DNA of 20,602 bases from a virus: positions 1 through 20,602 of IMG/VR virus record IMGVR_UViG_3300046002_009795; one strand, given 5' to 3'. A program made the translations under genes and the position numbers. Of this stretch, positions 1 to 17,157 are shown one piece after another. The notes below the pieces were generated by a model, which was not told the origin of the DNA, made no database searches, and was given only the letters and a program-made list of their open reading frames with translations. Position 1 is the stretch's first letter. Every line of letters begins with the position of its first letter.

Positions 1-576
1 ATAAGGAGTAGATAAAGCAATACATCCACCACCTGTAGCTAATGTTTGCTGTGCTGAAGCCCATATTTCTCCAATGTTGTTAATAAATGCGGCCTCATCT
101 ATGATTAGCAAAGAAACGGCTTCTGAACGACCTGCATCACTTGATGCTGCTGTTGCTTTAATTTGAGATCCGTTTTTTAAACGTAATGTTAATTTATTGT
201 CTTCAGTAGGTTTATCTTTTTCTTTAAGCCAAGAAGGTAAGCTTTCATACATAAACCTTACTTTGGTAACCATGTTTTTAGCAGTTTCTTGTTTTGTAGC
301 AATACACAGTATATTTTTATCTTGATGAAAAATCATCATCCACAAAGAATAACCCGCACATAAAGTTGAAATTCCTAATTGCCTAGATTTCAAAACCATT
401 GAATAAGGATTTTCTTGAAATAAAGTTAATACTTTTTCTTGAAATTGATAAAGATTAAATTGGATTCTACCACGTTTTGGATGTTGAATGTAGCAATACT
501 TTTTCATAAAATATGCCGGGGATGTAGCACATCTTAAATATTCTTCTCTTATTGCTTTTTTTAGATCTTCAGCCAT
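1..576 (-). CDS. terL: Terminase large subunit, N-terminal ATPase part (cut by window edge)
   Basis: This is the motor ATPase that pumps DNA into the prohead through the portal; the C-terminal nuclease half lies beyond the left edge. The 192 visible residues, translated by hand from the ATG at 576, begin MAEDLKKAIREEYLRC. They contain YFMKKYCYIQHP (22-33), a Walker A-like SRQLGIST (64-71), a Walker B LLIIDEAAFI (156-165) with catalytic E161, and the coupling motif ALSTPY (187-192). This order and spacing fit T4 gp17-type terminases. The ATG overlaps the TAA of the preceding gene (TAATG), which supports the start and suggests translational coupling. The frame is open to base 1. No small terminase is recognised next to it. 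Confidence 0.93.
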   Translation of the reverse strand, partial: MAEDLKKAIREEYLRCATSPAYFMKKYCYIQHPKRGRIQFNLYQFQEKVLTLFQENPYSMVLKSRQLGISTLCAGYSLWMMIFHQDKNILCIATKQETAKNMVTKVRFMYESLPSWLKEKDKPTEDNKLTLRLKNGSQIKATAASSDAGRSEAVSLLIIDEAAFINNIGEIWASAQQTLATGGGCIALSTPY

Positions 577-4201: not shown

Positions 4202-4771
4202 TTAATTACTATCTCCAAATACTCCTTCTAGTATTGCTCCGAAAATAAAACCACCAATAGCACCCGCAGCCGCTCCTGCTAAAGGAACCCATCCAGCGGG
4301 GTTTACGAGAGTATCTCCCCAAACATTAACATATTCAGTTACAAACATTCCTAGTTGTTGGGCTAAATATGAAGCTCCAATCATTCCAGCAATTAATCCA
4401 CCAAAACCAAGACCTACGGCTGCTGACATATCAGCTTCCTCATCTAATGAATTTGTTTCGTTTTCTAATTTTTTAGCAAATATAAGACCTAATTTTTTAT
4501 AGAAATCTTCTGAATTTTCATTTAAATTAAAAGGATTAATTCCTAATTTTTTTGCTGCATTTAATAGATCTTGTTTTTTCTTTGGATCATTAGCTATACT
4601 TGCGGCTAATGCATCAATTTTAGGATCATTTTTAATTTTACTTATTATTTTTGAAGTAGAATCAACTACTTGTTCTGGGGTAATTGTTGATTCCTCATTA
4701 AGTTTTTCTTTATATTGGCCTTCGGTAATTATACCGGCCAACATTTGCATTCTAAAAGTTTCTTTATTCAT
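4202..4771 (-). CDS. Small hydrophobic membrane protein with capsid-targeting-like N-terminus
   Basis: This 189-residue protein starts MNKETFRMQMLAGIITE (1-17), ending I-T-E. The core FRMQxLAGIxTE is shared with the upstream neighbour, so the two N-termini are homologous. A charged helical region (25-110) has further L-N-E sites at 24-26 and 83-85. The C-terminal third is hydrophobic and Gly/Ala-rich, with two likely membrane segments (about 117-140 and 158-185) containing glycine-zipper-like spacing (GLGFGGLIAGMIG; GAAAGAIGGFIFGAILEG). Similar Gly-rich pairs occur in pore-forming and exclusion proteins, but no family is recognised. Inferred: a packaged, injected membrane protein. It is the last gene before the terminator. 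Confidence 0.75.
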   Translation of the reverse strand: MNKETFRMQMLAGIITEGQYKEKLNEESTITPEQVVDSTSKIISKIKNDPKIDALAASIANDPKKKQDLLNAAKKLGINPFNLNENSEDFYKKLGLIFAKKLENETNSLDEEADMSAAVGLGFGGLIAGMIGASYLAQQLGMFVTEYVNVWGDTLVNPAGWVPLAGAAAGAIGGFIFGAILEGVFGDSN

Positions 4772-4803
4772 TTTATTTAGTTTTATTAAAAATATATTAT
4801 TTT

Positions 4804-5493
4804 TTAATTAGATTCGTTTTCATAATCAGGTAAAACATTTATACCACTTCTCCAATCATATTCTTCAGGATTTGTTTCTTTTCTTTTTAAGGATGCTTGA
4901 CGTTCTTTCTCAGTTTGAGGTTTTGGGTATTTGCTTCCGTCTGAACTAAATGTTACAAGGGTTGATGCTACACAAGCAATTAATGCTGCAGATATTGCAG
5001 CTGTAGCAAAAATAGGATTCGATGCTATGATTGCATAACCCGCAACTCCCATCCAAGTAGATAATCCTCCTGCTATTCCAAATATAGCTAAAGTAGCAAA
5101 TCCACCTACCCCATCGTTTTCTTCTAAATTAAAATCTGATTCTGTTAAATTGTTAGATAATTTTTCTAATTTATCTTCTGCTCCAGGGGATGCAAGAATT
5201 TTATTAGTAATATCTGTTAAATCAATTTCTTCAGTTAAAAATTCATTTAGTTGGGATGTAAGATCTCCGGTTGGAATTAAACTTTTTGCAGTATCTATTA
5301 CTTTTTGTTTTTCTTCATCTGATAAATTACTAGCAAGTTTTTCTGCTTTTTTTATAATATTTGGATCTTTTATTTTCTTTTGAAGAACAGATAAAAATTC
5401 TTTTTGAGCTAAAATATCATTTTCTTGATTTTCAGTTAAAATACCTGCTAATTTTTGCATTCTAAAAAACTGTTCACTTAAAATTTGTTTCAT
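4804..5493 (-). CDS. Membrane protein, paralogous N-terminus to its neighbour, capsid-targeting-like
   Basis: I place the start at the ATG at 5493 (229 residues: MKQILSEQFFRMQKLAGILTE), not the ATG nine bases upstream. The upstream ATG sits inside the AT-rich leader element, and the downstream one gives the same element-to-ATG spacing as at 13062. L-S-E (5-7) and L-T-E (19-21) are candidate prohead-protease sites; L-N-E (82-84) and L-T-E (86-88) follow. FRMQKLAGILTE matches the next gene downstream. After a charged helical middle come two hydrophobic segments (about 130-152 and 155-182), then a charged tail. The layout matches that neighbour, suggesting duplication. Function unknown; inferred to be virion cargo that inserts in a membrane. 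Confidence 0.75.
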   Translation of the reverse strand: MKQILSEQFFRMQKLAGILTENQENDILAQKEFLSVLQKKIKDPNIIKKAEKLASNLSDEEKQKVIDTAKSLIPTGDLTSQLNEFLTEEIDLTDITNKILASPGAEDKLEKLSNNLTESDFNLEENDGVGGFATLAIFGIAGGLSTWMGVAGYAIIASNPIFATAAISAALIACVASTLVTFSSDGSKYPKPQTEKERQASLKRKETNPEEYDWRSGINVLPDYENESN

Positions 5494-5513
5494 TTTTATC
5501 ATAAATATATTAT
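5494..5513 (-). promoter_or_regulatory. AT-rich leader element deciding the start of the membrane protein
   Basis: The minus strand reads AATATATTTATGATAAAA directly before the ATG at 5493. It nearly matches AATATTTATTATAAA before the ATG at 13062 and the element at 6503. The conserved spacing favours the downstream of two ATGs. Confidence 0.35.
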
Positions 5514-5555
5514 TTTGTTTTAAGCCGCTGCTATTTTTTGTATTTGTAAAAATTT

Positions 5556-6485
5556 TTAAGTATTATAATAATCATCAGCATCAAAAGGAGTATTTATAGG
5601 TTGTTTACCTGTTCCACTATAACCAGGTATAGGATAAGATAATAAACTTGAATTATAACTTGGTAAAGGACACTTATTCCAAGCTTCATTAAAGCTATCT
5701 AATTCTCCAGCTTTAGCTATTGTTTCTTCAGTTTTAATTTCCTTTTCTAATTCTTTAACTTGGTCTAATTTTGTAATAGTACTGTAAGTACTAAAGAAAC
5801 TTTTAAATCCTAAATTAAGTAAAATTGTTTTAAAAGGGGCAAAGGTTATAGCTAAAGGCAAACCAGCTTTTATTGCAGATCCTGTTGTAAATAATAAGGG
5901 GGCAGCAACTATTAAAATTTTAATAATAAAAGCTGCTACAAGAGTAATTAAAATCCATTTATAAGCTTTTTTAGCGGCTAGTAACATACAATTCTCTTGT
6001 TCTTCTGTTGGAGAAAAAGTTCGATAACGCACCATAGCAAAAAGTTTAGCTAATCCTTTTTCTGAAATAGTATTATATAGCCATTTAAAAAATTTACTAA
6101 TAGCTTCTGTTATATATTTAGCTCCTTTTAAAATAGTTTCTCCTCCGGGGATATAATTTATTATAGCATTTTTAAATTTTTCTACAAATTTAGTTATAAA
6201 ATTTTTTACCCATTCTACTACATTTTTTCCTAGTTTAGTACTAGTAATAAAATCTTTTATATTACCTATAACACTTAATATACTTGCTAGTATACCTTCA
6301 GCTTCTAAAATATTACTTTTATCTTCATTTAAAAAACCTTTTTTAACCTCATTATAAAATTTAAGATTTAATTTTATTTTTTCTTTAATATCTTGATTAG
6401 ATTTAACTTCAGCTAAAGTAATACCTTGGTAAGATTCTATTACCATACGTAATACTGATTTTTGTTCTGTTTTAGTAAGTATCAT
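5556..6485 (-). CDS. Large amphipathic/membrane protein, capsid-targeting-like N-terminus
   Basis: The 309-residue protein begins MILTKTEQKSVLRMVIE, a helix of mixed charge. L-A-E (24-26) and L-N-E (52-54) are candidate cleavage sites. Residues 60-150 are strongly amphipathic (Ile/Phe/Lys/Trp repeats), like peptides that lie on membranes. Two hydrophobic segments follow (about 174-202 and 207-226), then a short charged helix and a Pro/Ser/Tyr-rich tail containing NKCPLP. The same NKCPxP occurs near the start of the Cys-rich protein at 7991-8443. It is the first of three consecutive membrane proteins, with 53-base and 32-base gaps between them. Function is unknown; membrane insertion or permeabilisation upon entry is a guess. 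Confidence 0.7.
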   Translation of the reverse strand: MILTKTEQKSVLRMVIESYQGITLAEVKSNQDIKEKIKLNLKFYNEVKKGFLNEDKSNILEAEGILASILSVIGNIKDFITSTKLGKNVVEWVKNFITKFVEKFKNAIINYIPGGETILKGAKYITEAISKFFKWLYNTISEKGLAKLFAMVRYRTFSPTEEQENCMLLAAKKAYKWILITLVAAFIIKILIVAAPLLFTTGSAIKAGLPLAITFAPFKTILLNLGFKSFFSTYSTITKLDQVKELEKEIKTEETIAKAGELDSFNEAWNKCPLPSYNSSLLSYPIPGYSGTGKQPINTPFDADDYYNT

Positions 6486-6502
6486 TTAAGTAAAATGTAT
6501 AA

Positions 6503-6522
6503 TTTTTATTATAAATATGTTA
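6503..6522 (-). promoter_or_regulatory. AT-rich leader element upstream of the amphipathic protein
   Basis: The minus strand reads TAACATATTTATAATAAAAA, matching the element at 5494-5513 in 17 of the first 19 positions. Here it lies about 17 bases before the ATG rather than next to it, which argues for a role other than simple ribosome spacing. Confidence 0.3.
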
Positions 6523-6546
6523 AATATTAGATAATTTAATTAAAAA

Positions 6547-6819
6547 TTATGCTTTTACTATTTTTTTTATTTTCTTTTGACGATCTTCTAACTTATAGTT
6601 TTTATGAGTTTTAGATAATAAACTTCTCCAAAAATTTTCTGTATCACGAGGAGTAGTGTCCTCTTCTACTTTAACTGTAATAGTTTTAGGTTCTCCAATC
6701 ATTGGTTCATATGTTATTTCATATTCTCCAGCTTTAATATCTTTATTGTTTCTTACATTTTCACTTAAAGTACGATTAAGTTCTTCTTTAACTAATTGTT
6801 TTAAATTATCTAATTTCAT
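6547..6819 (-). CDS. Small protein with capsid-targeting-like N-terminus
   Basis: The 90-residue protein begins MKLDNLKQLVKEELNRTLSE (1-20): two Leu-rich turns ending L-S-E, the form shared by the putative cargo proteins. The rest (about 28-75) looks like a small beta-rich unit (GEYEITYEPMIGEPKTITVK), followed by a basic tail (KLEDRQKKIKKIVKA). It overlaps the upstream cupin-like gene by four bases (ATGA), so the two are translationally coupled. No family is recognised. Its basic tail would suit DNA association inside the capsid, which is inference. Confidence 0.7.
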   Translation of the reverse strand: MKLDNLKQLVKEELNRTLSENVRNNKDIKAGEYEITYEPMIGEPKTITVKVEEDTTPRDTENFWRSLLSKTHKNYKLEDRQKKIKKIVKA

Positions 6820-7076
6820 GATTTATGTATTTTTAACTTTAAAGTTCCTGTTCCTTTTATTACACGATGCCACTCGTGTCTTGGTATAAATATACGTTCT
6901 TTTAGTGAGGTAGGCAAGCAATTTTCTAATTGGAGTTGCCAATTTGTATCTTCTAGAATTTCAATAGTACGAGATTCATCATCACGATGCCACATAAGTT
7001 CTATTGGGTCTATATTTTCGTTGAATTCACGAATAATATACTTGTCAGTAACTTCTATGTCAGTATATGGGGTCAT
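6816..7076 (-). CDS. Small cupin-like protein
   Basis: The 86-residue protein has short beta-strand-like blocks with a conserved-looking pattern: ELMWHRDDESRTIEIL (26-41), NWQLQLENCLP, and IFIPRHEWHRVIKGTG (62-77). His residues in the first and last strands, a proline turn before the second His and closing glycines are what a single small cupin barrel shows, and I recall similar short proteins in T4-like phages. The likely metal-binding residues are H30, H66 and H69. Small-molecule or sugar binding is possible; no enzyme activity can be assigned. TAATG coupling joins it to the fibre-type gene upstream and ATGA to the one downstream. Confidence 0.55.
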   Translation of the reverse strand: MTPYTDIEVTDKYIIREFNENIDPIELMWHRDDESRTIEILEDTNWQLQLENCLPTSLKERIFIPRHEWHRVIKGTGTLKLKIHKS

Positions 7077-7750
7077 TAATTGAATACTTGAAAATAAGCA
7101 TAGTAAGAAGTCATAGTTCTATTTGTACTACCACTTACTATAATTTTGAAATCACCTGGGGTTAGGTTATTAAAGCTTCCACTTACTGTTGTATCTCCTA
7201 AAGGTATTGCTTTTAAATCACCTGTTTGATCACAGTATTTTATAGCATAACAAGTTGATACCATTCCTGCAGTAATAATAATTTCTCCCATAATTTCAAA
7301 TGGTTTATTTACTGAAAATGCTAAAGTTTGTGTTCCGAAATTTGAACCTGATAGGATTTGGTCTCCTATTTGTAAACGAATAGCAGCATTTGTATCACTA
7401 CTTCCACCTGATGCAAATTTACCTACAGCTCTAAAGTGTAAAATTTTAGCTACATAGTTTACAGAATCATCAAAGAATGATTGTGGTAAAGCTCTTGAAC
7501 CCCAAGTAGTACTACTGCCTAAAAAATCTGTATTTGTACCTGATCCTGAGGTGTAGATTATATCATTATTTCTAGTGTAAAGAGTTCTAACGGATGCTCC
7601 TCCCAAACTATCCGCATTTACACTACCTGAGGATAAAAAATCTGAGTAGGTAATTTGTTTAGTAATTCCGTCTTGTACTATAGGAATAATACTATCTGAT
7701 GTAATTTGGGTTGTTTGGGGTAATCCTGATATTGGTAAGTCTTCTGCCAT
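7076..7750 (-). CDS. Virion structural protein, fibre or appendage type
   Basis: The 224-residue protein begins with ISGLPQTTQITSDSIIPIVQ and then ITKQITYSDF, a motif common at the start of phage fibre and head- or tail-appendage proteins (the 'D-x-I-P-I-V-x-x-G-x-T-x-x-I/V-T-Y' pattern). A Gly/Ser/Thr-rich stretch follows (40-75), then a probable beta-sandwich (about 95-224) with SGSFNNLTPGDFKIIVSGS near the end. There are no charged helices and no capsid-targeting-type N-terminus, so it fits the outside of the virion, not the interior. The exact location (fibre, head decoration) cannot be told. The ATG overlaps the previous unit by a two-base gap only. Confidence 0.65.
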   Translation of the reverse strand: MAEDLPISGLPQTTQITSDSIIPIVQDGITKQITYSDFLSSGSVNADSLGGASVRTLYTRNNDIIYTSGSGTNTDFLGSSTTWGSRALPQSFFDDSVNYVAKILHFRAVGKFASGGSSDTNAAIRLQIGDQILSGSNFGTQTLAFSVNKPFEIMGEIIITAGMVSTCYAIKYCDQTGDLKAIPLGDTTVSGSFNNLTPGDFKIIVSGSTNRTMTSYYAYFQVFN

Positions 7751-7751
7751 A

Positions 7752-7994
7752 TTATGTAATTATAATTTTTCCTCCGTTTTCTTGAAGAATGTAAAATAAA
7801 TTTTCTTGTTGTAAAAATCCAGGTTTTGGTTTTGATAAGGGTCCTTTTGGTTGATCATTTAACCAATTTTGTCTTGCAAGGGACAGGTCATAGATATATT
7901 GATTATATTCTTTTACCTGTTCATTTAATTGGAGTTTATTAATTTTATCCAATTTAACAAACTGAGGCCAAGATATTTCTTCAAAAATGTTCAT
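7752..7994 (-). CDS. Small hypothetical protein
   Basis: This 80-residue protein (MNIFEEISWPQFVKLDKINK onward) has an L-N-E at 23-25, but its N-terminus is less like the targeting peptides of its neighbours. The middle is helical with Tyr/Trp/Gln, followed by a Lys/Pro-rich turn (GPLSKPKPGF) and a short beta-like end (GGKIIIT). The ATG overlaps the upstream TGA (ATGA) and is preceded by AAAGGAGA, one of the few Shine-Dalgarno-like sequences here, although it falls inside coding sequence. No family is recognised; from position it is likely a virion or chaperone-type small protein. Confidence 0.6.
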   Translation of the reverse strand: MNIFEEISWPQFVKLDKINKLQLNEQVKEYNQYIYDLSLARQNWLNDQPKGPLSKPKPGFLQQENLFYILQENGGKIIIT

Positions 7995-8443
7995 TCTCCT
8001 TTACGCTCTTGCCAATCGTAAGATACACTATCTTTTTCAATAGGGCCACCAACAACCCAAGCATCACAAGTTCGAGCAGCGGCACATTTAAATTTAAGCA
8101 TTCTACAATATCCTAATTTTCCAGCTTTAATAACGTCAAATGGATCTTCTGTACCTTCATCATCACCTATTCCTTTAGCTATGCAATCTAAAGTTTTTGT
8201 TGTAACATCAAATGCAGCACAATTACCACAACGTGAAGTTTTAGCTTCTTCTACTGTATCAAGCTGCCACATGTCTGCTTTAGCTTGCCAAAACTTTTCA
8301 TTTGGTTCATTTGGATTTAAAGGTCCATACCCATATTCATTGATTGCTTTTTGTCTATTTTGCAAATTCAACTCTATGTTTTGAGTTGGGATAGGACATT
8401 TATTTAATTCAGCTTCGCTTAGTATATCTGTTAATTTAATCAT
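7991..8443 (-). CDS. Cys-rich metal-binding-type protein with capsid-targeting-like N-terminus
   Basis: The 150-residue protein starts MIKLTDILSE (1-10), a near-exact copy in form and length of the T4 capsid-targeting peptide, with L-S-E before the predicted cut. The body has NLQNRQKAINEYGYGPLNP (26-44), a pattern I recall from uncharacterised marine phage proteins. Seven cysteines follow or flank: C16, C72 and C75 (CGNC), C87, C113 (GYC), C120 and C126 (TCDAW). The CGNCAAF...C...GYC order resembles the cluster-binding order of high-potential iron-sulfur proteins; a zinc site is the alternative. Role unknown, probably virion-internal. Confidence 0.75.
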   Translation of the reverse strand: MIKLTDILSEAELNKCPIPTQNIELNLQNRQKAINEYGYGPLNPNEPNEKFWQAKADMWQLDTVEEAKTSRCGNCAAFDVTTKTLDCIAKGIGDDEGTEDPFDVIKAGKLGYCRMLKFKCAAARTCDAWVVGGPIEKDSVSYDWQERKGE

Positions 8444-8448
8444 AATTT

Positions 8449-9027
8449 TTAATTTACAGTTTTATTTTTTTGAGGAGACCAATATGAATTATTTTTTCGA
8501 TTTGGATATTTGTAATATTCTACAGGAATATTTAATTTTTTAGAAATATTACTAATTTTATTAATTTCACCCATTTGATCCTCATGATATGTGTCCATAT
8601 CATCATAAATTATTATATCTAATTTTTTAATATAAGGTGTTATATTAATTTTACCACTATATTTTTTAGAAGGAATTATCAATTCTGATTCTGAATTTTG
8701 GGTAGATCGAGAATATGGAGTGTCCCAATCTTTTTCATCTCTTTTGATTTCAGGTTTAAGTTGAGCATATGGAAGAATTTGGTATTTATTTGATAATTTA
8801 TCCCCATCTATTGTTATTCTAACTTGAGATTTAAAACCTCCTAAAGTTGATAAAGCTCTATTTCTTGTAAATGATATAAATCCTAATTTTTCTGATCTAT
8901 CTGGGGATGGTTCTAATTTTCCAGATTCTAATATATCAGGTGTTGAGTCTAGTGAGGTAAAATGATAAATTTCTCCTATTTGTTTACCTTCAGTAATTTC
9001 TTTTAATATGTCTATTAATTTAATCAT
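8449..9027 (-). CDS. ADP-ribosyltransferase-like protein, predicted capsid-packaged
   Basis: The 192-residue protein starts MIKLIDILKE|ITE (L-K-E at 8-10, I-T-E at 11-13). Residues 20-37 (IYHFTSLDSTPDILESGK) hold the His-anchored first strand and 'I-L-x-x-G-x-L' helix typical of ART-fold enzymes that bind NAD. GFISFTRNRAL (49-59) follows, then VRITIDGDKLSNKY (69-82) and SESELIIP (112-119) with candidate catalytic Glu. This is the H-Y-E-like ART order seen in small phage and toxin ARTs. T4 packages the ART Alt by the same sort of N-terminus and injects it to modify RNA polymerase; this may be a functional parallel with a different ART class. Enzyme activity and target are inferred. Confidence 0.65.
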   Translation of the reverse strand: MIKLIDILKEITEGKQIGEIYHFTSLDSTPDILESGKLEPSPDRSEKLGFISFTRNRALSTLGGFKSQVRITIDGDKLSNKYQILPYAQLKPEIKRDEKDWDTPYSRSTQNSESELIIPSKKYSGKINITPYIKKLDIIIYDDMDTYHEDQMGEINKISNISKKLNIPVEYYKYPNRKNNSYWSPQKNKTVN

Positions 9028-9431
9028 TTTGTTTTACCCCAAGTTTTACCTTTACCAGGTGTTTTACATTGTGATGGTGTAGGACGACATGAAGGATATT
9101 TTGAACGTTCTTCTCCTTTTTCTCTACCACAAGATTTATATCCTGTTATTTCACTATCTTTTCTAATTGGTGAATTACAATCTACCCATCCACCTTTTTT
9201 ACCAGGTGCACCCTTGCGGGAAAACCAAGTACGGAGGGTTTCTTTAACTTTTTCTTGGATTACTTCTTCTTTTAAACCTTTCCAAATATCTCCTTTACGG
9301 CATCTAACTACAGCACCTGATTTATAAGCGGAAGGTTTATCAAATTTGCGATCAGCAATGCGTAAGCATCTGTCACGTTTTTCCTTTTCTTCAGAAAGAA
9401 CTTCATTAATAAGTTTTTCTAATCTATTCAT
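9024..9431 (-). CDS. Basic Cys-rich DUF5872-like protein with capsid-targeting-like N-terminus
   Basis: I start at the ATG at 9431 (135 residues), which overlaps the upstream TGA as TGATG; a GTG one codon earlier is less likely. It begins MNRLEKLINE|VLSE. Two basic modules follow. One is RCLRIADRKFDKPSAYKSGA (21-40) with CR at 44-45. The other (65-135) has the pattern WFSRKGAPGKKGGWVDC, then CGR, RSKYPSCRPTPSQC and a GKGK tail. I recall the second as the DUF5872-type domain of phages and large viruses, though from memory. Cysteines at 22, 44, 85, 101, 115 and 122 could bind zinc. High positive charge suggests DNA contact inside the head. Confidence 0.7.
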   Translation of the reverse strand: MNRLEKLINEVLSEEKEKRDRCLRIADRKFDKPSAYKSGAVVRCRKGDIWKGLKEEVIQEKVKETLRTWFSRKGAPGKKGGWVDCNSPIRKDSEITGYKSCGREKGEERSKYPSCRPTPSQCKTPGKGKTWGKTK

Positions 9432-10108
9432 CACCAGAATCCTGAAAATGATGATTTTAAGCCAAGTAATTTTGCGTATCTTGGAAGTCTACAACTCCAG
9501 TATGAAGCTTTAGTTTTGTCTGTTTTATTTTTGCAATCGTGACGTGCAGCAAATGCTTTTCTAGCTTTTGAATTATTTATTTTAGCTGAAAGGCCTGTTG
9601 TGTCTCCAAAACTAATTTTTTTAATTTTTTTAGTTTGAGGATTTTTTACGTAAACATAGAATTTTTTAGATCCTCCACGTTTTGGTTTTCCAAGTGGTGG
9701 ATTTTTCTTTTTATCTTCTGCTTCTTCAAGTTCTTCATTTTCAAGTAAAAGTAAATCTAAAGGCACTTTTTGATTTTCATATAAACCAAAGTTACCTAAA
9801 TCAGTTTCCTCTAAAATTTCTTTATCATCTTCATTTACATGAATAATTTCACGTAAATATAGTGAACGAGCTTCTGCCCATAAATTAAGGAACGATTGCG
9901 AACCATATCGGAACGTGTTTTCGGTAAGTGGGAGTTGTTTATCCACGTGATATCGCAGATTCTCCGACAATATCTCTTTTTTAACTAAACTTTCATTTAG
10001 TACAACACCAGTATTACCTACATTGTCACAATCGTGGCAACCACAATTGCAAGTATCTTTTTTTAAATATACTTCTTTAATAAGGTGTTTTAAACGTGAT
10101 TTGTCCAT
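9431..10108 (-). CDS. Cys-rich/basic two-part protein with capsid-targeting-like N-terminus
   Basis: I start at the ATG at 10108 (225 residues), one base after the upstream stop; an in-frame TTG seven codons earlier would bury the targeting-like peptide. It begins MDKSRLKHLIKE|VYLKK. A compact CNCGCHDC (20-27, Cys at 20, 22, 24, 27) looks metal-binding. Further L-N-E (37-39), L-S-E (47-49) and L-T-E (61-63) sites cluster before an acidic helical middle (75-131). The C-terminal 90 residues are strongly basic (KPKRGGSKKFYVYVKNP; KISFGDTTGL; ARKAFAARHDC; SYWSCRLPRYAKLLGL), a domain I recall in T4-like marine phages without a function. Proteolytic release of that basic domain inside the head is a plausible inference. 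Confidence 0.7.
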   Translation of the reverse strand: MDKSRLKHLIKEVYLKKDTCNCGCHDCDNVGNTGVVLNESLVKKEILSENLRYHVDKQLPLTENTFRYGSQSFLNLWAEARSLYLREIIHVNEDDKEILEETDLGNFGLYENQKVPLDLLLLENEELEEAEDKKKNPPLGKPKRGGSKKFYVYVKNPQTKKIKKISFGDTTGLSAKINNSKARKAFAARHDCKNKTDKTKASYWSCRLPRYAKLLGLKSSFSGFW

Positions 10109-10109
10109 G

Positions 10110-11108: not shown

Positions 11109-11575
11109 TATGCTGGTGTTTCTTCTGGGGGTGTTTCTGAAGGAGGGATTTCTGCAGGTGGTGCTTCTATACTTTCAATTCCCGCTCCAGTTTCACTATC
11201 ACCTTCTTCTCCTTTAACGCCATACCTTAGCATGTTTGCTATAGATTGAGAAGCTCTTTCTTCTTCAGGTAAATTAAGTAAATAGTATTTTTTACCTTCT
11301 ACTTGAGCAATCCAACTACGTCTTCCATAAATTAAATAAAAATTTTGGTCGTTTTTTAAATTAATTCTAAATGTAGAAGGACGGGGTGCTACCCAATCAA
11401 TTGAGGATAAAAAATTATCATATTCTAAAGTAAGTAAATCAACTATAACTTTTTTAAGTTCAGGGAATTTAGTTAACTCATCGTATTCGATAGCTTCTGC
11501 TGGGGTAATAGTGTTAGCAGAGTATACTTGACGAGCTAAGTCTTGAATTCTTCTCTTAAGTTGATCTTTAGTCAT
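11108..11575 (-). CDS. Uncharacterised phage protein with acidic Pro-rich tail
   Basis: The 155-residue protein begins MTKDQLKRRIQDLARQVYSA, a basic amphipathic helix without an (L/I)-x-E end. The core (about 45-108) contains SSIDWVAPRPSTFRINLKND and FYLIYGRRSWIAQVEGKKYYLLNL, beta-strand-like with conserved-looking aromatics, probably a small folded domain. From residue 115 it is disordered, acidic and Pro-rich (APPAEIPPSETPPEETPA). No family is named. It sits between the nuclease-like gene and a helical protein in a tightly coupled run, so a structural or assembly role is likely. Confidence 0.6.
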   Translation of the reverse strand: MTKDQLKRRIQDLARQVYSANTITPAEAIEYDELTKFPELKKVIVDLLTLEYDNFLSSIDWVAPRPSTFRINLKNDQNFYLIYGRRSWIAQVEGKKYYLLNLPEEERASQSIANMLRYGVKGEEGDSETGAGIESIEAPPAEIPPSETPPEETPA

Positions 11576-11577
11576 TT

Positions 11578-12375
11578 TTATTTAAGTTTAGCTAAAATAG
11601 CTTCTTTAATTTTTTTCTTCATTGCTGTTGATGTAGCAATTTTACCTGCTTTTTCATCGGGCATGCCTTTAGCTGTTAAAGTATCAAATATTTCACCACG
11701 TTTTTTGATTTGTTTTTTTGACATTTCATCAATAGCTCCTTCTTCAGAAGCTACGTCTACCATAGCATCTAGTTGAGGTTCTTTTATTTCAAAATCAAGG
11801 TAATGTTTAGCTGAAACTAACATATTTTTAGCTTCGATAATTTTTGCTTGCCACCAATGTGGGAAATCAACTTCTTGTTCACCTTCAAATTGATCAACCA
11901 TTTTATAAAGTTCCATAGCATATTTTCCAATACGATACAGATCCGCTTTAAGCATATGTGGTTCATTATCTTCATGGCCTAGATCAAGATCTTCATCTAA
12001 ATTACCTTGTTTTTTTAAAATAGACTTTTGTAAACCATCCGGTAATTTTTTCCTCCCATCAGTAAATTTATCATCATATTGAGATGTAAATGAAGATGCT
12101 TTTTTCTTTTCAGATAAGGGTTTAGATAATGCTGATTGAATCATTTCTTTTAATTTGTCTCCTTGTTTCATAGGTTCTTCAGTTGTTGGTTCTGCTAATT
12201 TCTCAGCTTGTTTTTTTCTCATTTGCTTAACGGCGATACTATATGCGTATTGTTCGCCGTCTGAGCCTTTTGAGTTGTAAAGTTTATCTAAACGACTATT
12301 AATAATGGTCTTAAAATTCTGGTAAATCTCTTGAGATTCCTCTGAAGTAAAAGGTTCATTAATAGGTTGTTCCAT
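11578..12375 (-). CDS. Helical phage protein of unknown function
   Basis: The 265-residue protein is mostly charged helix. A central block (about 143-207: LKADLYRIGKYAMELYKMVD, then FPHWWQAKIIEAKNMLVSAK and HYLDFEI) matches a pattern I recall in many T4-like marine phage proteins: a helix, a 'DFPHWWQAKI' turn and a helix with KHYL. The C-terminal part (220-265) reads like a small helical unit (KRGEIFDTLTAKGMPDEKAG, then KIATSTAMKKKIKEA), similar to Ku- or Rho-N-like basic motifs, with a basic end. The N-terminus is acidic and not targeting-like. Possible roles are a virion core or scaffold component; nothing more specific can be supported. Confidence 0.6.
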   Translation of the reverse strand: MEQPINEPFTSEESQEIYQNFKTIINSRLDKLYNSKGSDGEQYAYSIAVKQMRKKQAEKLAEPTTEEPMKQGDKLKEMIQSALSKPLSEKKKASSFTSQYDDKFTDGRKKLPDGLQKSILKKQGNLDEDLDLGHEDNEPHMLKADLYRIGKYAMELYKMVDQFEGEQEVDFPHWWQAKIIEAKNMLVSAKHYLDFEIKEPQLDAMVDVASEEGAIDEMSKKQIKKRGEIFDTLTAKGMPDEKAGKIATSTAMKKKIKEAILAKLK

Positions 12376-12378
12376 TTT

Positions 12379-12552
12379 TTAAGCTGCTTTGTCTTCTGCA
12401 GTTGAAGTTTTCTTAAATTCTGCTGCTAATTTTTTAATATTGTTAGCGGCGCTACGTGCTCTACCACGAGCGGCTTTTGATGTTTTACCATGTTCAGCTT
12501 CTAAAGTAGCTAATTGTTCTTGAATTGCGTTAAAAATTTCTGTTGTGTTCAT
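12379..12552 (-). CDS. Histone H1/Hc1-like small DNA-binding protein
   Basis: I found this 57-residue gene by translating the gap: ATG at 12552, TAA at 12379, fitting exactly between its neighbours. It begins MNTTEIFNAIQEQLATLEAE and continues with HGKTSKAARGRARSAANNIK, then KLAAEFKKTSTAEDKAA. A short acidic helix is followed by an Ala/Lys/Arg helix carrying KAARGRARSA, and a K-x-x-A-x-E-F-K-K-x-S end. This matches the plan of Hc1 histone H1-like proteins (about 55-60 residues in Bacteroidetes). Such proteins bind and compact DNA. Inferred role: condensing phage DNA or coating host DNA. The leader is AT-rich without a Shine-Dalgarno. Its small size makes it easy to overlook. Confidence 0.75.
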   Translation of the reverse strand: MNTTEIFNAIQEQLATLEAEHGKTSKAARGRARSAANNIKKLAAEFKKTSTAEDKAA

Positions 12553-12582
12553 AGATTTGATTGTTTATATAGATTTAATTGT

Positions 12583-13062
12583 TTACTGTTCTTCTCCACC
12601 AATATATTCGCTAACGAAAAATTTTAGTGTGTTTCCTATTTGTGTTTCTAGTTTTTCATTGTTCATTCCTTTAGCAACTTTAAGGGCTTTCATTAAATAG
12701 TCCATTAAATCGCCTTCTGTACCTTCCATGTCTGCAGCTATGTCTTCTAAGCCACCACCTGTAGCAGGTGCTTCTTCAGCCGGTGCATCTTCTGCAGGAA
12801 CTTCTTCAGTTGTATCAGTTGTTTCAACATCAGTTGTTTCAACGTCTTCTACTTTTTTATCTTTTTTAGCTTCTTCAAGTTCATCTCCTCCATGATCAAC
12901 AGTATCATACTCATCATCTGGGTCGCCTAATTCAGCTAAAATCATTTCTTTAATTTTATCTTTTACATGCTTATTTTCATTAAGGGATTTAAATGTTGGG
13001 TTTAAATTTTCAAGAGATTTATTTTCTTTTAAAAATTTTGTTAAGTCAAAAGTATCTTTCAT
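12583..13062 (-). CDS. Acidic virion-associated or scaffold-like protein
   Basis: The 159-residue protein begins MKDTFDLTKFLKE|NK (L-K-E at 11-13), with L-N-E at 27-29; FDLxKFLxENK is a start I recall from phages of this kind. The middle (48-105) is acidic and low in complexity, with tandem VETTD (74-83) and PAEDAPAEEAPA repeats. The C-terminal third is a helical module (DLMDYLMKALKVAKGMNNEK) ending acidic. Acidic, helical and protease-site-rich is typical of prohead core proteins such as T4 gp67/gp68/gp22, so a core or packaged role is possible. The ATG follows an AT-rich leader element directly. Confidence 0.65.
   Translation of the reverse strand: MKDTFDLTKFLKENKSLENLNPTFKSLNENKHVKDKIKEMILAELGDPDDEYDTVDHGGDELEEAKKDKKVEDVETTDVETTDTTEEVPAEDAPAEEAPATGGGLEDIAADMEGTEGDLMDYLMKALKVAKGMNNEKLETQIGNTLKFFVSEYIGGEEQ
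12763..12843 (-). repeat. Low-complexity acidic repeats (VETTD and PAEDAPAEEAPA)
   Basis: Two tandem 15-base units encode VETTD twice, then a degenerate Pro/Ala/Glu run. The DNA repeat gttgtttcaac is visible twice on the plus strand around 12820-12843. It is likely slippage-grown disordered linker within one gene. Confidence 0.65.
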
Positions 13063-13080
13063 TTTATAATAAATATTAAA
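13063..13080 (-). promoter_or_regulatory. AT-rich leader element abutting the acidic protein start
   Basis: The minus strand reads TTTAATATTTATTATAAA and runs straight into the ATG at 13062. It fills the whole 18-base gap and matches the elements at 2145, 5494 and 6503. The lack of space before the ATG argues for a translation signal over a promoter at this site. Confidence 0.35.
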
Positions 13081-13701
13081 TTATTTTTTGTTTGTCGCGT
13101 ATAAATATTCAGAAAGTAATGTTCCTATAACTCCTACTTTTTGTCTAAGGAATATCCATTTATCTTTTTCTAAATGATGTGGTTCTTTAAATGATATCCC
13201 CATTATTCCTATTAAATGGTCATCTAAACTATGTAAGCCCACTATGCAAGCTGATTTAGTACCGCATTGGTTAGTAAAAAATTCTAACCCATATGTATCC
13301 TCATCATTTTCTACATCAGAAACATACAGTTCATTGTCTTTATATACTTTAGAAAGTACTCTAGGAAATAAAGATACAGGAATATTTTGAAATGTACCTT
13401 GTATGTTTGGAGTTTCAGGGGTACATTTTTCGTAAAATATAGAAAATTTCTGAATGGATTTACCTGTAGGGTAAAAATGACCTCCGTTATGGAATTGGGC
13501 AATCCATACTCTATCACATTCTAGTTCTTCTAGTACAATTTCAAGTTGATTATCTACTAAAGTTGAAGTTTCAAGAGCATCAAACATTAAAGTATTTTGG
13601 GATTTTTTTTCCATTTTTAGTTTAAACCAAGCTACTATAATAGGACCTAGTACAGCAGTTATTAATGCTACTAAAATTGTTGTAAATACAGTTGTTGTCA
13701 T
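13081..13701 (-). CDS. Membrane-anchored GAF-domain-like protein
   Basis: The 206-residue protein has an N-terminal membrane helix (about 5-27, VFTTILVALITAVLGPIIVAW) followed by a basic cytoplasmic linker (KLKMEKKSQ). The remainder (about 45-200) has a GAF-like arrangement: a long helix (TSTLVDNQLEIVLEELECDR), VWIAQFHNGGHFYPTG strands and turn, KFSIFYEKC, a variable loop, LYVSDVEND, then SACIVGLHSLDDHLIGIMG as the final beta-hairpin, and a last helix. GAF domains bind small ligands such as cyclic nucleotides. There is no output domain, so it could sense or sequester a signal at the host membrane. Whether ligand binding is kept cannot be told. It has no targeting-like peptide and is ATGA-coupled to the upstream gene. 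Confidence 0.65.
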   Translation of the reverse strand: MTTTVFTTILVALITAVLGPIIVAWFKLKMEKKSQNTLMFDALETSTLVDNQLEIVLEELECDRVWIAQFHNGGHFYPTGKSIQKFSIFYEKCTPETPNIQGTFQNIPVSLFPRVLSKVYKDNELYVSDVENDEDTYGLEFFTNQCGTKSACIVGLHSLDDHLIGIMGISFKEPHHLEKDKWIFLRQKVGVIGTLLSEYLYATNKK

Positions 13702-14270
13702 TTTTTAAGTGAATTTAAATAATTAATAGATTCTTCCATAGCCTTTAATGCACGATCTTTATCAATCCCACCGACCCATTTTTGCACATCACCAGCTTCT
13801 GTTACAAAGCCATTATTACTTTCTGACAACTTATTATCCATGAAACTTTTATAATCTTCTATATGAAGATCAATTTCTTTATTAAATGTTTGATTTACAT
13901 AATTTTCCCACTTTCCAGATACTTTTAGTTGGGTTTCTGTTGTAGCTCTACAATCTAAACATTCACCATAAGATTTAAAATAGTGTATGTCTAATTGTTT
14001 GTCCATGTTTTGTTTACATTTTGGACAAAATATAGGAATAGATAGATTTTTAAATTTATCTAATTTAGTAATATTTTCTTTTAAACCATCTTTGATAGTC
14101 CATTCTTTACCATCTGATTTCCAAATGTCACCTTCTTTATGTTCTCCTTCAGGAGTTTTACTATAACCTATTCCAACAGTTGTTCTGTCTCCATATTTAC
14201 CTTTAACAAGGTTACGTAAACGTTCAACGTCTTTTTTTTGAAATTCTTTTTTTAAAACTGAATCTGACAT
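13698..14270 (-). CDS. Zinc-ribbon phage protein of unknown function
   Basis: The 190-residue protein has an N-terminal helix (DVERLRNLVKGKYGDRT), then GIGYSKTPEGEHKEGDIWKS, then DGKEWTIKDGLKENITKLD: a beta-type segment I recall from uncharacterised T4-like phage proteins. A zinc ribbon follows with CPKC (82-85) and CLDC (104-107). The tail is helical, with F-V-T-E-A near 155-159 and a lysine-rich end. The N-terminus (MSDSVLKKEFQKKD) lacks the (L/I)-x-E form, so packaging is not predicted. Zinc ribbons of this sort bind nucleic acid or protein. It is coupled on both sides (no gap to the HAD gene, ATGA to the GAF gene). Confidence 0.65.
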   Translation of the reverse strand: MSDSVLKKEFQKKDVERLRNLVKGKYGDRTTVGIGYSKTPEGEHKEGDIWKSDGKEWTIKDGLKENITKLDKFKNLSIPIFCPKCKQNMDKQLDIHYFKSYGECLDCRATTETQLKVSGKWENYVNQTFNKEIDLHIEDYKSFMDNKLSESNNGFVTEAGDVQKWVGGIDKDRALKAMEESINYLNSLKK

Positions 14271-14834
14271 TTATAAATCGTATTTTTTAAGAGCTTCTAT
14301 AGTTTTTGAAGCAGAAGTATGTAAAATTGCTTTACCACCAGCTGCCTTCCAAGCATCTATATTTTTTTGCATATCGTCTATAAGTATATGCTTTGATGTT
14401 GCAAATGTTGATTTTTGAGGAGCAGGAACAAATATTTCTTTATTTACACCATTAAGGTGTTTAGAAATCCATTCTTTTTTACCTTGAATAGCTTGGTTGA
14501 ATTCGGGATTTAATTGTTGGTCTTGAGGTAAATTAAAATCTACTGCGGGAGCTGATAGGATATTTGGGGAAGAAGATTTAATATGATTCCAAAGTTCTTC
14601 TCCTCCCGGTTGCCATGGTAAGTTAGCCCAAAAATCTTTTTCATTTTTTCCAACGCTTTCTCTAAAAAGTTTCCAAAAATAAGATTTACCTTTAGCATTA
14701 GCTTCATCTGTAGATTCTCCTGTTAACTTTTCATATCCTTGATCGAAATCACAAAGCACACCATCCATATCACAATATATAGTGTATGGTTTGATTGCTT
14801 CATATAAGTCAAGTAAAGTTGGTATTTTTTTCAT
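14271..14834 (-). CDS. HAD-family nucleotidase-like protein, capsid-targeting-like N-terminus
   Basis: The 187-residue protein starts MKKIPTLLDLYE|AIKPY (L-Y-E at 10-12), then goes into HAD motif I, IYCDMDGVLCDF (19-30), with nucleophile D22 and acid/base D24. The middle holds FWANLPWQPGGEELW (68-82), as in 5'(3')-deoxyribonucleotidases, and NILSAPA (91-97) as motif II. HILIDDMQKNIDAW (149-162) supplies the metal-binding D153/D154. The probable reaction is dephosphorylation of a (deoxy)nucleotide. The targeting-like peptide sits just before the catalytic domain, so cleavage would leave the enzyme intact. It lies directly downstream of the nucleotidyltransferase/peptidase fusion and may act with it on nucleotides. 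Confidence 0.8.
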   Translation of the reverse strand: MKKIPTLLDLYEAIKPYTIYCDMDGVLCDFDQGYEKLTGESTDEANAKGKSYFWKLFRESVGKNEKDFWANLPWQPGGEELWNHIKSSSPNILSAPAVDFNLPQDQQLNPEFNQAIQGKKEWISKHLNGVNKEIFVPAPQKSTFATSKHILIDDMQKNIDAWKAAGGKAILHTSASKTIEALKKYDL

Positions 14835-14852
14835 GTATTAATTTTAATAAAT

Positions 14853-16373
14853 TTACAACCTATTTTTTACTCGTTCAAGTAATTCTTCAGTAAATGGTAC
14901 ACCATGTCTATTTTCAAATTCGTTTACAAGTCTATCTGTTGATAACTTTTTATTTTTTAATAAAATATATGCTCCTAAATCAGCATCCATTTCATCTTCT
15001 TCAGAATATGGTCCTGTATGTCCTAAAAGTAAATGGGTTATTTCGTGTGCTTCAACAAATTTAAAATCCCTAAAATCTAAATTAGAATTTATAAAACGTT
15101 CACCATTAAGAATTATTGTTTTATCTTCTGGGGAATAAAAACCATATCCATATTTATTAAATAAAGGTTTTAAAATTTTATAATTTTCATAATTTCCAAA
15201 AGCAACTAATATGTTTATATCTGGTTTAAATATGCTTTTATATAATAAAGTGCCATTATCCTCTTCTTTTTCTTCGTTTAATGGTTTAGGTGTATTATTA
15301 GTACCACACTTATGACAAACATATAAGTCATCTCCACCATCTTTTATTTTCCAACTCCACCCACAATTATCACATTCAATTCTATCTTCAAATACACCTT
15401 CAGTTAATGTATCTGTCCAGTTTCGGAAAGTCATATTTCCTTTTTCATATGCTTCTCTTTCAATTTCAGGCAAATCACCTTCTTCGTTTGTGTCTTGAGT
15501 AGAAATACCATTTAAACGATCTTCACAGTTTTGCATGTGGTGAATCATTTCGTGCGCAAATGAACGCATAATGTCTTTTGGATGACGATCCATTGTATAA
15601 AGTACTATAACGCGTTGATTCCGATCGTAATACGCCGTTTTACCAAAAAAATTCCTAGCATTTTCAACATCATCTTCTATAAATTTTACTTTAGGTAAAG
15701 GTTTAATATTCATTCCCTTATCTAACATAAATTCAGTAAGTGCTTTTAGTTGTTTTGGATAATCAAATTTGCTAGGTTCAGCATACTTTATTTCATTTAG
15801 TGGGGTTTTAGTTAAAATAGACCAAATCCCATCTTTTTCTTCTTGTGATAATTCAGTTGGAAGATATGATTGAAATTTGTCTTTTTCACCACTAATTAAA
15901 GCAGCTCTTGTTTTTGTTCCACTAACTCGATCTTTACCTTCTTCTGTTTTAATTACTATTGTTTTAAAGTTAGGATATTTACCTTCTAAACTATCAAATC
16001 GTTTTATATCACCTAAATCCATTTCACCTCTAATACCCACTACTGGGTAAAAATATGTGGATGGGTTGTTTTTTATAAGTGAGCTAATATCTGCAATAGG
16101 TGAAGAGTTATCTGAAGTTTTAATTTCAACGTTAGAGGGAAGGTATTTTTTATAGATATCCCATACTGCTAAACTTTCTTCTTTAGTTACACCATCTCTT
16201 ATTTTATGGCCTATTAAAACAATTACTTTATCAAAATTTGGATTTTGTGCTACTTCATCAACTAATACAAAATGTCCTATAGTTGGGGGTTTAAAACCAC
16301 CAGGGATTAAAGCAACACCTTTTTGTTCAGATTCTAAAAGTGGAAATATAAGTGATTTAACTAATGAATTCAT
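14853..16373 (-). CDS. Nucleotidyltransferase - metallopeptidase - zinc ribbon - metallopeptidase fusion
   Basis: The 506-residue protein starts MNSLVKSLIFPLLE|SEQ (L-L-E at 12-14). Domain 1 (18-185) is a cytidylyl/adenylyltransferase of the NMNAT-like class: GGFKPPTIGH (25-34, TxGH site) and VSGTKTRAAL (150-159, the ISSTxxR equivalent). Domain 2 (200-320) is a zinc peptidase with SFAHEMIHHMQ (271-281, HExxH at 274-278) and EIEREAYE as possible third ligand. A zinc ribbon follows (C334, C337, C353, C356). Domain 3 (375-506) is a second peptidase with EAHEITHLLLGH (441-452, HExxH at 443-447) and EEDEMDADLGAY, resembling ImmA/IrrE-type enzymes. L-N-E or L-T-E sites occur at 192-194, 323-325 and 365-367, each at a domain junction. 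It overlaps the upstream kinase gene by 17 bases. Confidence 0.82.
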   Translation of the reverse strand: MNSLVKSLIFPLLESEQKGVALIPGGFKPPTIGHFVLVDEVAQNPNFDKVIVLIGHKIRDGVTKEESLAVWDIYKKYLPSNVEIKTSDNSSPIADISSLIKNNPSTYFYPVVGIRGEMDLGDIKRFDSLEGKYPNFKTIVIKTEEGKDRVSGTKTRAALISGEKDKFQSYLPTELSQEEKDGIWSILTKTPLNEIKYAEPSKFDYPKQLKALTEFMLDKGMNIKPLPKVKFIEDDVENARNFFGKTAYYDRNQRVIVLYTMDRHPKDIMRSFAHEMIHHMQNCEDRLNGISTQDTNEEGDLPEIEREAYEKGNMTFRNWTDTLTEGVFEDRIECDNCGWSWKIKDGGDDLYVCHKCGTNNTPKPLNEEKEEDNGTLLYKSIFKPDINILVAFGNYENYKILKPLFNKYGYGFYSPEDKTIILNGERFINSNLDFRDFKFVEAHEITHLLLGHTGPYSEEDEMDADLGAYILLKNKKLSTDRLVNEFENRHGVPFTEELLERVKNRL

Positions 16374-17157
16374 TTATTTTAGATTGAGCTTCTTCTTTGG
16401 AAACAGAGGAGTTTATAATATTTTGAGCTAGATTAGAATCAAGGAAATTTTGAATTTCTATATTTAATTTTTCTTTTAATTTATTAGATTTTTCTTGTTC
16501 TTTTTCAGTTTTTTGTTTTGGATCTTTTGGATCAAATGGAGTAACATACTTTTGAATAATTTGATCAATATCTTTTAATGTTTCTTCATTACCAGTATTG
16601 GATACAGATACAAAGTTATTACCAAATAATTGTTGATATAAAGGAAAATTTTTAGCTACCATAAGCCATGTTCCTAATACAGCACCAGGAAGTAAACTTC
16701 TATCTTCTCCACCTGATTTTTCAAATCGTTCTTCATTGCGTTTTAAAGATGTTTCTAGTTCAGTATAAACATATAACATCATTACTTTATATCCCGCTTC
16801 TTCAAGTTGGGATTTTAGTTTTAAAGTTTGGTTTGGAGATGAAGCCGTACCATCTAAAATAAATGATTCTTTATTTAATATAGTTTGAGGTAAATCTTGG
16901 GTTTTTAATTGTTTTGCAGCAGTTTGCATTGCCGACATAAATTTACTTCTATCTTCGGAATCTGCTGTTTTTTGGTTTAGTGTAAATTGATCTTGTTTTG
17001 ATAAAGCTGCTATAGTATCATCAATGTTAAGAATTTTAAATTTACTTAAGTTTAAATCTCTTAGAATAGTTCCTTTTCCAGATCCTGGTGCCCCCGCTAA
17101 TATAATAGCTTTAGGACTATCTTGCACTTCCTTTAATAATTGGATAAGACTTATCAT
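16357..17157 (-). CDS. P-loop kinase, zeta-toxin/adenylate-kinase-like, capsid-targeting-like N-terminus
   Basis: The 266-residue protein begins MISLIQLLKE|VQDS (L-K-E at 8-10, exactly ten residues as in T4 internal proteins). The kinase starts at once: IILAGAPGSGKGT (18-30, Walker A), ILNIDDTIAAL (42-52) with D46/D47 in the place used for substrate phosphorylation in zeta-toxin-type kinases, and FILDGTASS (92-100). KVMMLYVYTELETSLKRNEE (113-132) has the nucleotide-lid arginines. The last 60 residues are a charged helical extension. Substrate is unknown: nucleotide, sugar nucleotide or nucleoside are possible. Predicted to be carried in the virion ahead of new synthesis; kinase identity is firmer than the packaging inference. 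Confidence 0.78.
   Translation of the reverse strand: MISLIQLLKEVQDSPKAIILAGAPGSGKGTILRDLNLSKFKILNIDDTIAALSKQDQFTLNQKTADSEDRSKFMSAMQTAAKQLKTQDLPQTILNKESFILDGTASSPNQTLKLKSQLEEAGYKVMMLYVYTELETSLKRNEERFEKSGGEDRSLLPGAVLGTWLMVAKNFPLYQQLFGNNFVSVSNTGNEETLKDIDQIIQKYVTPFDPKDPKQKTEKEQEKSNKLKEKLNIEIQNFLDSNLAQNIINSSVSKEEAQSKINEFIS

Follow-up and report, generated by a model that had tools for sequence, protein, structure and literature searches.

The stretch of DNA analysed here, a 20,602-base IMG/VR virus fragment (IMGVR_UViG_3300046002_009795; hereafter the window), carries a series of minus-strand genes whose products begin with short leaders that end in (L/I)xE, the type of site cut by the T4 prohead protease gp21. 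The original prediction had listed twelve such leaders, and all 12 were found on the minus strand at the starts given for them (Table 1), three of which (5493, 9431 and 10108) are internal ATGs within slightly longer open reading frames (ORFs). Ten of the 12 match an extended motif, [LFIYMV]..[LFIYMV][LIVF].E, near the N-terminus; those of 14834 (TLLDLYE) and 16373 (SLIFPLLE) display the plain (L/I)xE only, and the leader of 6819 contains LVKE at residue 12 and its (L/I)xE (LSE) at residue 20. The proteins behind the leaders are unrelated, as had been claimed, the best match between genes being a BLASTP E of 0.07 over 19 residues, and short leaders of several types are common to unrelated proteins of one phage. 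Gene 16357-17157 encodes a Zeta-toxin/AAA_33-type P-loop kinase (Pfam Zeta_toxin, E 1.6e-17, residues 12-153), and its distinct homologues, among those listed, all carry a MISLxxLLxE or MISLINILKE leader. Gene 14271-14834 encodes a 5'-deoxynucleotidase (NT5C) whose domain starts at residue 19 and whose homologues have different leaders, whilst 7991-8443 encodes a Cys-rich protein that matched no Pfam family and whose homologues bear class C leaders (classes are defined below). Leaders were present in 15/16 members of the 9024-9431 family and in 39/39 members of the 1287-2144 family, the product of which is possibly a core protein instead of injected cargo.

Table 1. Leaders and other features of the 20,602-base window (a slash marks a predicted cut or a joint between modules)
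Feature	Position	Strand	Basis
Leader MISLIQLLKE (class B) of 16357-17157	17128..17157	-	Sequence
Leader MNSLVKSLIFPLLE of 14853-16373	16332..16373	-	Homologues with MNSLVKSLIQPLLE etc.
Leader MKKIPTLLDLYE of 14271-14834, weaker match	14799..14834	-	Sequence
Leader MKDTFDLTKFLKE (class C) of 12583-13062, acidic protein	13024..13062	-	Sequence
Leader MDKSRLKHLIKE (class A) of 9431-10108	10073..10108	-	Sequence
Leader MNRLEKLINEVLSE (class A) of 9024-9431, DUF5872-like	9390..9431	-	Sequence
Leader MIKLIDILKEITE (class B) of 8449-9027, predicted cut E13/GKQIG	8989..9027	-	Family alignment
Leader MIKLTDILSE (class B) of 7991-8443	8414..8443	-	Sequence
Leader MKLDNLKQLVKEELNRTLSE (class A) of 6547-6819	6760..6819	-	Sequence
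Leader MKQILSEQFFRMQKLAGILTE (class D) of 4804-5493	5431..5493	-	Sequence, class D pattern scan
Leader MNKETFRMQMLAGIITE (class D) of 4202-4771	4721..4771	-	Sequence, class D pattern scan
Leader MKQTRLLEIIRE (class A) of 1287-2144	2109..2144	-	Sequence
Putative cargo with ADP-ribosyltransferase fold, nearest folds Tpt1/KptA and DarT	8449..9027	-	AlphaFold model, Foldseek, structure alignment
506-aa mosaic: leader, cytidylyltransferase-type (NMNAT-like) domain, HEMIHH metallopeptidase, Zn ribbon, HEITH (M78-type) metallopeptidase	14853..16373	-	
E194, joint TPLNE/IKYAE, past nucleotidyltransferase module	15792..15794	-	
E325, joint DTLTE/GVFED, past metallopeptidase 1	15399..15401	-	
E367, joint KPLNE/EKEED, past Zn ribbon	15273..15275	-	
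T4-type terminase large subunit (TerL), 3' part missing	1..576	-	PF03237

The window ends in the gene for the terminase large subunit (TerL), and the same gene order is found in Flavobacterium phage vB_FspM_immuto (hereafter immuto), which infects Flavobacterium sp. LMO8 and where DNA primase, tagged genes, TerL, portal, gp21, a probable scaffold and gp23 follow one another; the window therefore adjoins the head operon. By TerL, immuto (64.7% identity) and Microcystis phage Mel-JY01 (61.6%) are the nearest cultured phages, and the host of the clade, as judged from immuto alone, is probably a member of the Bacteroidetes. A TerL search of IMG/VR confirmed at least 599 of 600 stretches, of which 80 were kept; long relatives among the matches listed include G001 (129 kb, TerL 99% identical) and G002 (156 kb, 89%). 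Labels beginning with L or G denote loci or contigs of relatives from IMG/VR, and since these records share ancestry, counts taken across them are not independent.

The leaders were enriched well over chance. Among the 30 genes of the window, 11 have the extended motif in residues 2-21 against a mean of 1.3 for internal windows, a count reached by 0/1000 draws; plain [LI].E in residues 8-21 was found in 15 against a mean of 5.5 (0/1000 draws). For whole records, uniform gene calls were scanned with a strict motif, L..[LFIYMV][LIVF].E, which had been tailored to the window and its relatives, and compared with 500 shuffles of the N-termini. This motif occurred in 15/157 genes of G001 (shuffle mean 1.5), 22/215 of G002 (2.4) and 11/215 of immuto (1.6), counts reached by 0/500 shuffles in each case, and was weak in Mel-JY01 (5/232 vs 1.6; 8/500). 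It was not enriched in the T4-like phages T4 (2/246 vs 2.0), HTVC008M (1/181 vs 1.0), KVP40 (0/369 vs 2.4), RM378 (2/148 vs 1.5), syn9 (0/184 vs 0.8) and P-SSM2 (2/299 vs 1.9), nor in the gp21-less Bacteroidetes phages FCL-2 (0/68), phi38:1 (0/84), crAss001 (0/101) and phi14:2 (2/108 vs 0.7; 84/500). A motif modelled on T4 sites, [LF][LI].E, was raised in G002 (22 vs 7.7) and immuto (16 vs 5.9; 0/500 each), with 10 vs 5.5 in G001 (18/500) and 5 vs 5.1 in Mel-JY01. Unrelated tagged bodies numbered 16/16 in G001, 26 groups among 27 in G002 and 23/23 in immuto, figures that partly include chance matches; the tagged genes of immuto include 102294, 103366, 103806, 109856, 111675, 113188, 117631 and 118632.

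Four recurring classes of leader were identified: A (MxxxLxxLIKEE), B (MIKLIDILKE), C (MxNFDLKKFLxENKL) and D (RMQxLAGIITE). In place of the single MKTYQEFIAE-type peptide originally envisaged, the clade thus appears to use at least four leader classes, class B being nearest, when read side by side by eye, to the T4 gp24 propeptide MAKINELLRE. Position-free scans of IMG/VR for classes D and C gave at least about 120 stretches each, with 233 loci listed; in 193 of these, 128/137 class D matches and 81/87 class C matches fell within 15 codons of a start. Matches elsewhere include copies inside longer proteins (L339, L347, L218 and L318). In L339 and L347 the class C copies lie 424 and 418 residues into the ORF with the Met of the second leader retained and LxE directly before it, and these seem to be two tagged genes fused in frame. 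Across 3,442 non-redundant 5'-complete ORFs, 668 match some leader class, and leaders of several classes were found in 23/47 tagged families with more than one member, an upper bound given single linkage and the overlap of classes A and B. We identified 245 cross-class pairs with similar bodies, including clean swaps between L111 and L294 (class C vs A, bodies 94% identical over 77 residues) and between L294 and L330, L246 and L431, and L214 and L245 (class D vs C, bodies 74-79% identical). After de-duplication, the (L/I)xE motifs at the junction are aligned in register in 9/21 swap pairs; shifted registers give 0.8 on average and 5 at most. As far as these alignments indicate, leaders swap on closely similar bodies while the (L/I)xE tends to remain with the body.

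Tagged genes may also be clustered. In G002 (loci L117-L118), eleven consecutive small genes at 97666-102496 all carry class A, B or C leaders, and the region is a candidate early-effector island. Between the leaders of this run, 25-38% of the codons compared are different, roughly half of the changes being synonymous, and the upstream bases are unlike, which argues that the peptide and not the DNA has been conserved. By eye, the genes flanking the run are a clamp-loader-like AAA gene on one side and a GroEL-like one on the other.

The junction between leader and body was followed in the family of gene 8449-9027, from which the most compelling evidence for a body-anchored site comes and whose product is predicted by modelling to have an ADP-ribosyltransferase (ART) fold. 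The AlphaFold model (predicted local distance difference test 73.8, predicted template modelling score 0.73) comprised a low-confidence helix at residues 4-13 followed by the core. Foldseek matched it to 7yw4 (E 3.4e-5), and the core aligned with Tpt1/KptA (Z 11.5, 111 residues, root-mean-square deviation 2.5, from model residue 13) and with DarT (7omx; Z 8.8, 133 residues, deviation 3.8), the fold match starting past the leader. No Pfam family matched the protein, and a PDB sequence search with the family alignment returned DarT1 only (E 0.23). H22, R55 and E115 are invariant in the family, which is suggestive only of NAD+-dependent transfer. The Glu at the predicted cut (P1), two residues ahead of KQ(V/I/L)G, is present in 37/37 distinct members; P3 is Leu/Ile in 36/37 (Met in one) and P1' is Gly/Ala/Ser in 36/37 (Asp in one), although the leaders belong to class B, A or D or are short and unclassified (MILIKE, MKTFKELIE). 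Some members had been retrieved with a leader-containing pattern, and the 26 of 33 short-upstream members lacking that pattern were counted separately; P1 Glu was present in 26/26. In an alignment of 28 sequences, Glu13 is one of 12 invariant columns. The same LxE lies 130-343 residues into the chain of five fused proteins, ahead of the ART-fold module. This alignment also refines the cut sites named originally: the site type stood, but the cut is often not predicted at the first (L/I)xE, as in 8449-9027 itself, where it falls at ITE13 and not LKE10. A search of bacterial genomes for untagged ART-fold relatives found one metagenome-assembled contig (1/35 stretches), in which the ORF start is ambiguous. 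Two further loci, L585 and L584, encode mosaic proteins of at least 872 and at least 924 residues that include ART-fold and Zn-ribbon modules among others; L585 adds a nucleotidyltransferase and a metallopeptidase.

Gene 14853-16373 likewise encodes a mosaic, combining several unrelated domains and zincin-like metallopeptidases in one chain, as polyvalent proteins do. Its nucleotidyltransferase module is called from a PHROG match (E 1.3e-8) and weak PDB matches, NMNAT versus PPAT being ambiguous. The 506-residue chain contains seven (L/I)xE, about as many as expected from composition, so the evidence lies in their position and not their number. In the mosaics of relatives, (L/I)xE was found no more than 14 residues past the first domain in 10/10, past the first metallopeptidase in 12/16 (three others have MxE or VxE and one has none), ahead of the Zn ribbon in 12/14 and no more than 16 residues past it in 13/14, followed by 11 different starts. 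A general test of internal joints in 5'-complete ORFs gave 88/274 vs 47.3 (0/500), in a list that still contains noise such as terminase, polymerase and tail fibres; an earlier version (313/1429 vs 248.8) was discarded because its ORFs were cut at locus ends. Gene product 14853-16373 would be packaged and injected as a polyvalent-like protein, and gp21 probably also cuts such chains at their joints. It is possible, though on the doubtful side, that the modules are instead released by the embedded metallopeptidases, or not released at all. Release of this kind is proposed for polyvalent proteins in passages of PMC5512222, and 14853-16373 has two HExxH motifs; the placement of (L/I)xE at the joints (10/10, 12/16 and 13/14) argues for gp21 instead, as does the ART-fold module border, which is identical in the stand-alone tagged protein and in fusions.

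The protease itself is encoded by most relatives. Matches to gp21 (PF03420) exceeded the Pfam cut-off in 17/19 TerL relatives including G001, with E-values of 8.9e-35 in immuto and 6.2e-30 in Mel-JY01, as well as in 8/8 named T4-like phages tested and 0/4 Bacteroidetes controls. Among contigs of at least 80 kb, gp21 was present in 10/12 chosen by leader pattern alone (the IMG/VR copy of immuto excluded) and in 4/17 chosen by a neutral 16-mer. No gp21 was found within the window, which ends in terminase, and we infer that its own phage encodes one beyond it. In the four records without gp21, gp23 was not found either, by a search that had no positive of its own, and the head operon may be missing from these records. 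H85 and S140 of T4 gp21, which we take to be the residues T4 uses, are invariant in six aligned gp21s. A separate observation concerns G030, the 268,739-base contig of L379, a single record that encodes two distinct prohead proteases of PF03420.

Sites resembling those of T4 were also conserved in the head proteins of the clade. According to passages of PMC9958956, T4 cleavage shortens gp24 by 10 residues, gp23 by 65 and gp21 by nine, whilst a passage of PMC3012670 gives mature IPI as 76 of 95 residues; in the sequences fetched, all of these documented cuts (gp24, gp23, gp21 and IPI after residue 19; 4/4) follow (L/I)xE. In the clade, 15/16 listed capsid proteins start ..LLE like gp24, KQLV[VTI]E occurs near residue 63 in 15/15 that are long enough, and [LIV]LIE is kept at the gp21 start in 19/20 usable loci. 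The capsid proteins and gp21s of the clade would presumably be cut at these places.

We consider it likely that the leaders are interchangeable capsid-targeting propeptides cut by gp21, which would extend the T4 internal-protein system in a modular way. An amphipathic N-terminal leader of 10-25 residues would dock the cargo on the prohead core, gp21 (peptidase S77) would cut after (L/I)-x-Glu at the border of leader and body, and the matured cargo would remain in the head and enter the next host with the DNA. Leader classes A-D would be functionally equivalent and exchanged by recombination, turning unrelated enzymes, such as the ART-fold enzyme, the nucleotidyltransferase/metallopeptidase mosaic, the kinase and the deoxynucleotidase, into cargo; some of this cargo would consist of mosaic chains with (L/I)xE at their joints. 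Docking, cleavage, packaging and injection are read here from genes, and some tagged genes may be parts of the prohead core instead of injected effectors. The T4-type targeting and gp21 cleavage proposed originally for diverse proteins gains partial support from sequence (enrichment, gp21 in relatives, substrate-like sites in their capsid proteins and gp21s, swaps and body-anchored sites) and, as amended here, is the likeliest interpretation. The wider proposition, that non-homologous leaders and body-anchored gp21 sites form a general recombining cargo-loading code which routes dozens of unrelated proteins per genome, including gp21-cut polyproteins, into the head, has in our view an even chance of being correct.

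Several results weigh against cleavable capsid-targeting leaders. The [LF][LI].E motif is mildly raised in T4 (13 vs 7.5, 15/500) and in the cyanophages P-SSM2 (13 vs 6.8, 9/500) and syn9 (7 vs 3.5, 24/500) too. A weight matrix from 15 structural sites separates clade and controls poorly, giving 8 vs 6.7 in G001, 13 vs 5.7 in G002 and 16 vs 6.9 in immuto and being raised in T4 (12 vs 4.3), P-SSM2 (17 vs 4.9) and Mel-JY01 (13 vs 5.9), which indicates that the leaders are more alike among themselves than like capsid sites. Classes A and B match terminase starts in some relatives, so the pattern alone is no proof of cargo, and 12/21 swap pairs have no aligned site. The capsid protein of L077 has LLK, the gp21 of L092 has LLVD, and the gp21s of immuto and Mel-JY01 lack the Glu of LLIE (LLIN and LLID; LLTE and IIKE lie a few residues downstream). 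In the mosaics, plain (L/I)xE is common, occurring in 16% of 14-residue windows and having a 16-18% chance per window, and the sequences are related. Glu13 could be part of the ART fold.

This last point bears on an alternative that we regard as unlikely, in which the leaders do act as docking helices, either at the prohead core or at some other site of assembly or in the cell, but stay uncut, the conserved Glu belonging to the helix or domain. Consistent with this, a class A leader also opens a short gene between portal and gp21 (MDKIKEIIRKKLKEMSAT), the position of the core proteins gp67 and gp68 in T4; the leader of 8449-9027 is modelled as a helix at residues 4-13; and two conserved families carry the motif almost throughout (39/39 and 10/10). 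Against it, relatives encode gp21, and the border of the body keeps Leu/Ile at P3, Glu at P1 and a small residue at P1' behind different leaders as well as within fused proteins. That the tags address proteins to the tail, host membrane or another compartment instead of the head is improbable: some tagged genes do have baseplate genes as neighbours (in immuto 81525, which adjoins 81944, labelled 'baseplate assembly protein', and in G002 48790), but the leaders correspond to the propeptides of T4 prohead-core and vertex proteins and to the starts of clade capsid proteins, and most tagged genes of the window adjoin the terminase end of the head operon. Chance, given that amphipathic N-termini containing Leu, Ile, Lys and Glu are frequent among the products of AT-rich genomes, that plain (L/I)xE is frequent and that false positives such as terminase occur, is very improbable and is refuted for the whole set by the 0/500 shuffles in G001, G002 and immuto, the lack of enrichment in four gp21-less Bacteroidetes phages of similar G+C content, and the eleven consecutive tagged genes of G002, in whose leaders about half of the codon differences are synonymous; single genes (14834) may still be chance.

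Cleavable capsid-targeting leaders would enlarge a known system and found no new one. T4 IPI-IPIII and Alt likewise have a short N-terminal leader on unrelated proteins, ending in (L/I)xE and served by an S77 protease, and an ART, Alt, is among the T4 cargo (passages of PMC9503650), as an ART-fold protein probably is in the clade. Excerpts of PMC12373910 describe at least 10 internal proteins of T-even relatives as recognised by their leader. The clade differs from T4 in having four or more leader classes and far more tagged genes in each genome, in tagging enzymes and mosaics, in its leader swaps and in a host phylum that is probably Bacteroidetes. Ejection proteins of the giant phages SPN3US and phiKZ are processed in a similar manner: a gp21-type protease removes N-terminal propeptides from several head proteins, and two paralogues have an identical N-terminus (passages of PMC5694885); their propeptides are mostly >100 residues with the motif AxE/SxE, whereas those of the clade are 10-25 residues with (L/I)xE. 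An N-terminal address is likewise used by DarB of phage P1, whose first 30 residues bring a reporter into the head (passages of PMC9024508); the same passages report no consensus among the Dar N-termini, whilst the classes of the clade are plain. Polyvalent proteins of phages and plasmids share the mosaic chains with zincin-like metallopeptidases and ARTs and are thought to be injected, their release being credited to embedded peptidases (passages of PMC5512222), whereas the joints of the clade mosaics carry prohead-protease-type sites and their chains an N-terminal leader. In searches of the open-licence PMC literature, we found no publication on these leaders in the clade and no immuto virion proteome, and the multi-class modular code, the body-anchored site and its use in mosaics appear to be new.

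In the window, two overlapping genes preceding TerL (576-1287, minus strand), one encoding a hydrophobic start and a coiled coil and the other a signal-peptide-like start, are a spanin-like pair by eye. An untagged AAA_28 kinase (2166-2705, minus strand; NadR-like by eye) and an FAD/NAD oxidoreductase (2724-4088, minus strand) are conserved in relatives between the tagged genes and TerL, and 18886-19344 (minus strand) encodes a SegE-like GIY-YIG endonuclease (PF19835, E 1.8e-22). Mel-JY01 (PP395634) is labelled a Microcystis phage, though a Flavobacterium phage has the closest TerL and gp21, and the host label may merit a check.

Proteins delivered by a phage in the first seconds of infection are hard to tell from sequence, and a readable tag would name candidates in uncultured phages; the scans for two classes, each with at least about 120 IMG/VR stretches, indicate its reach. 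T4 internal proteins described in passages of PMC12373910 inhibit type IV restriction, making the eleven-gene run of G002 a set of candidate early counter-defence genes. The new leader sequences are offered for loading proteins into phage heads, and protease-cut phage polyproteins become a testable idea. If the reading holds, leader and site could serve in metagenomic sequence as a barcode that marks proteins delivered by the virion, and phage polyproteins processed by the capsid maturation protease would exist.

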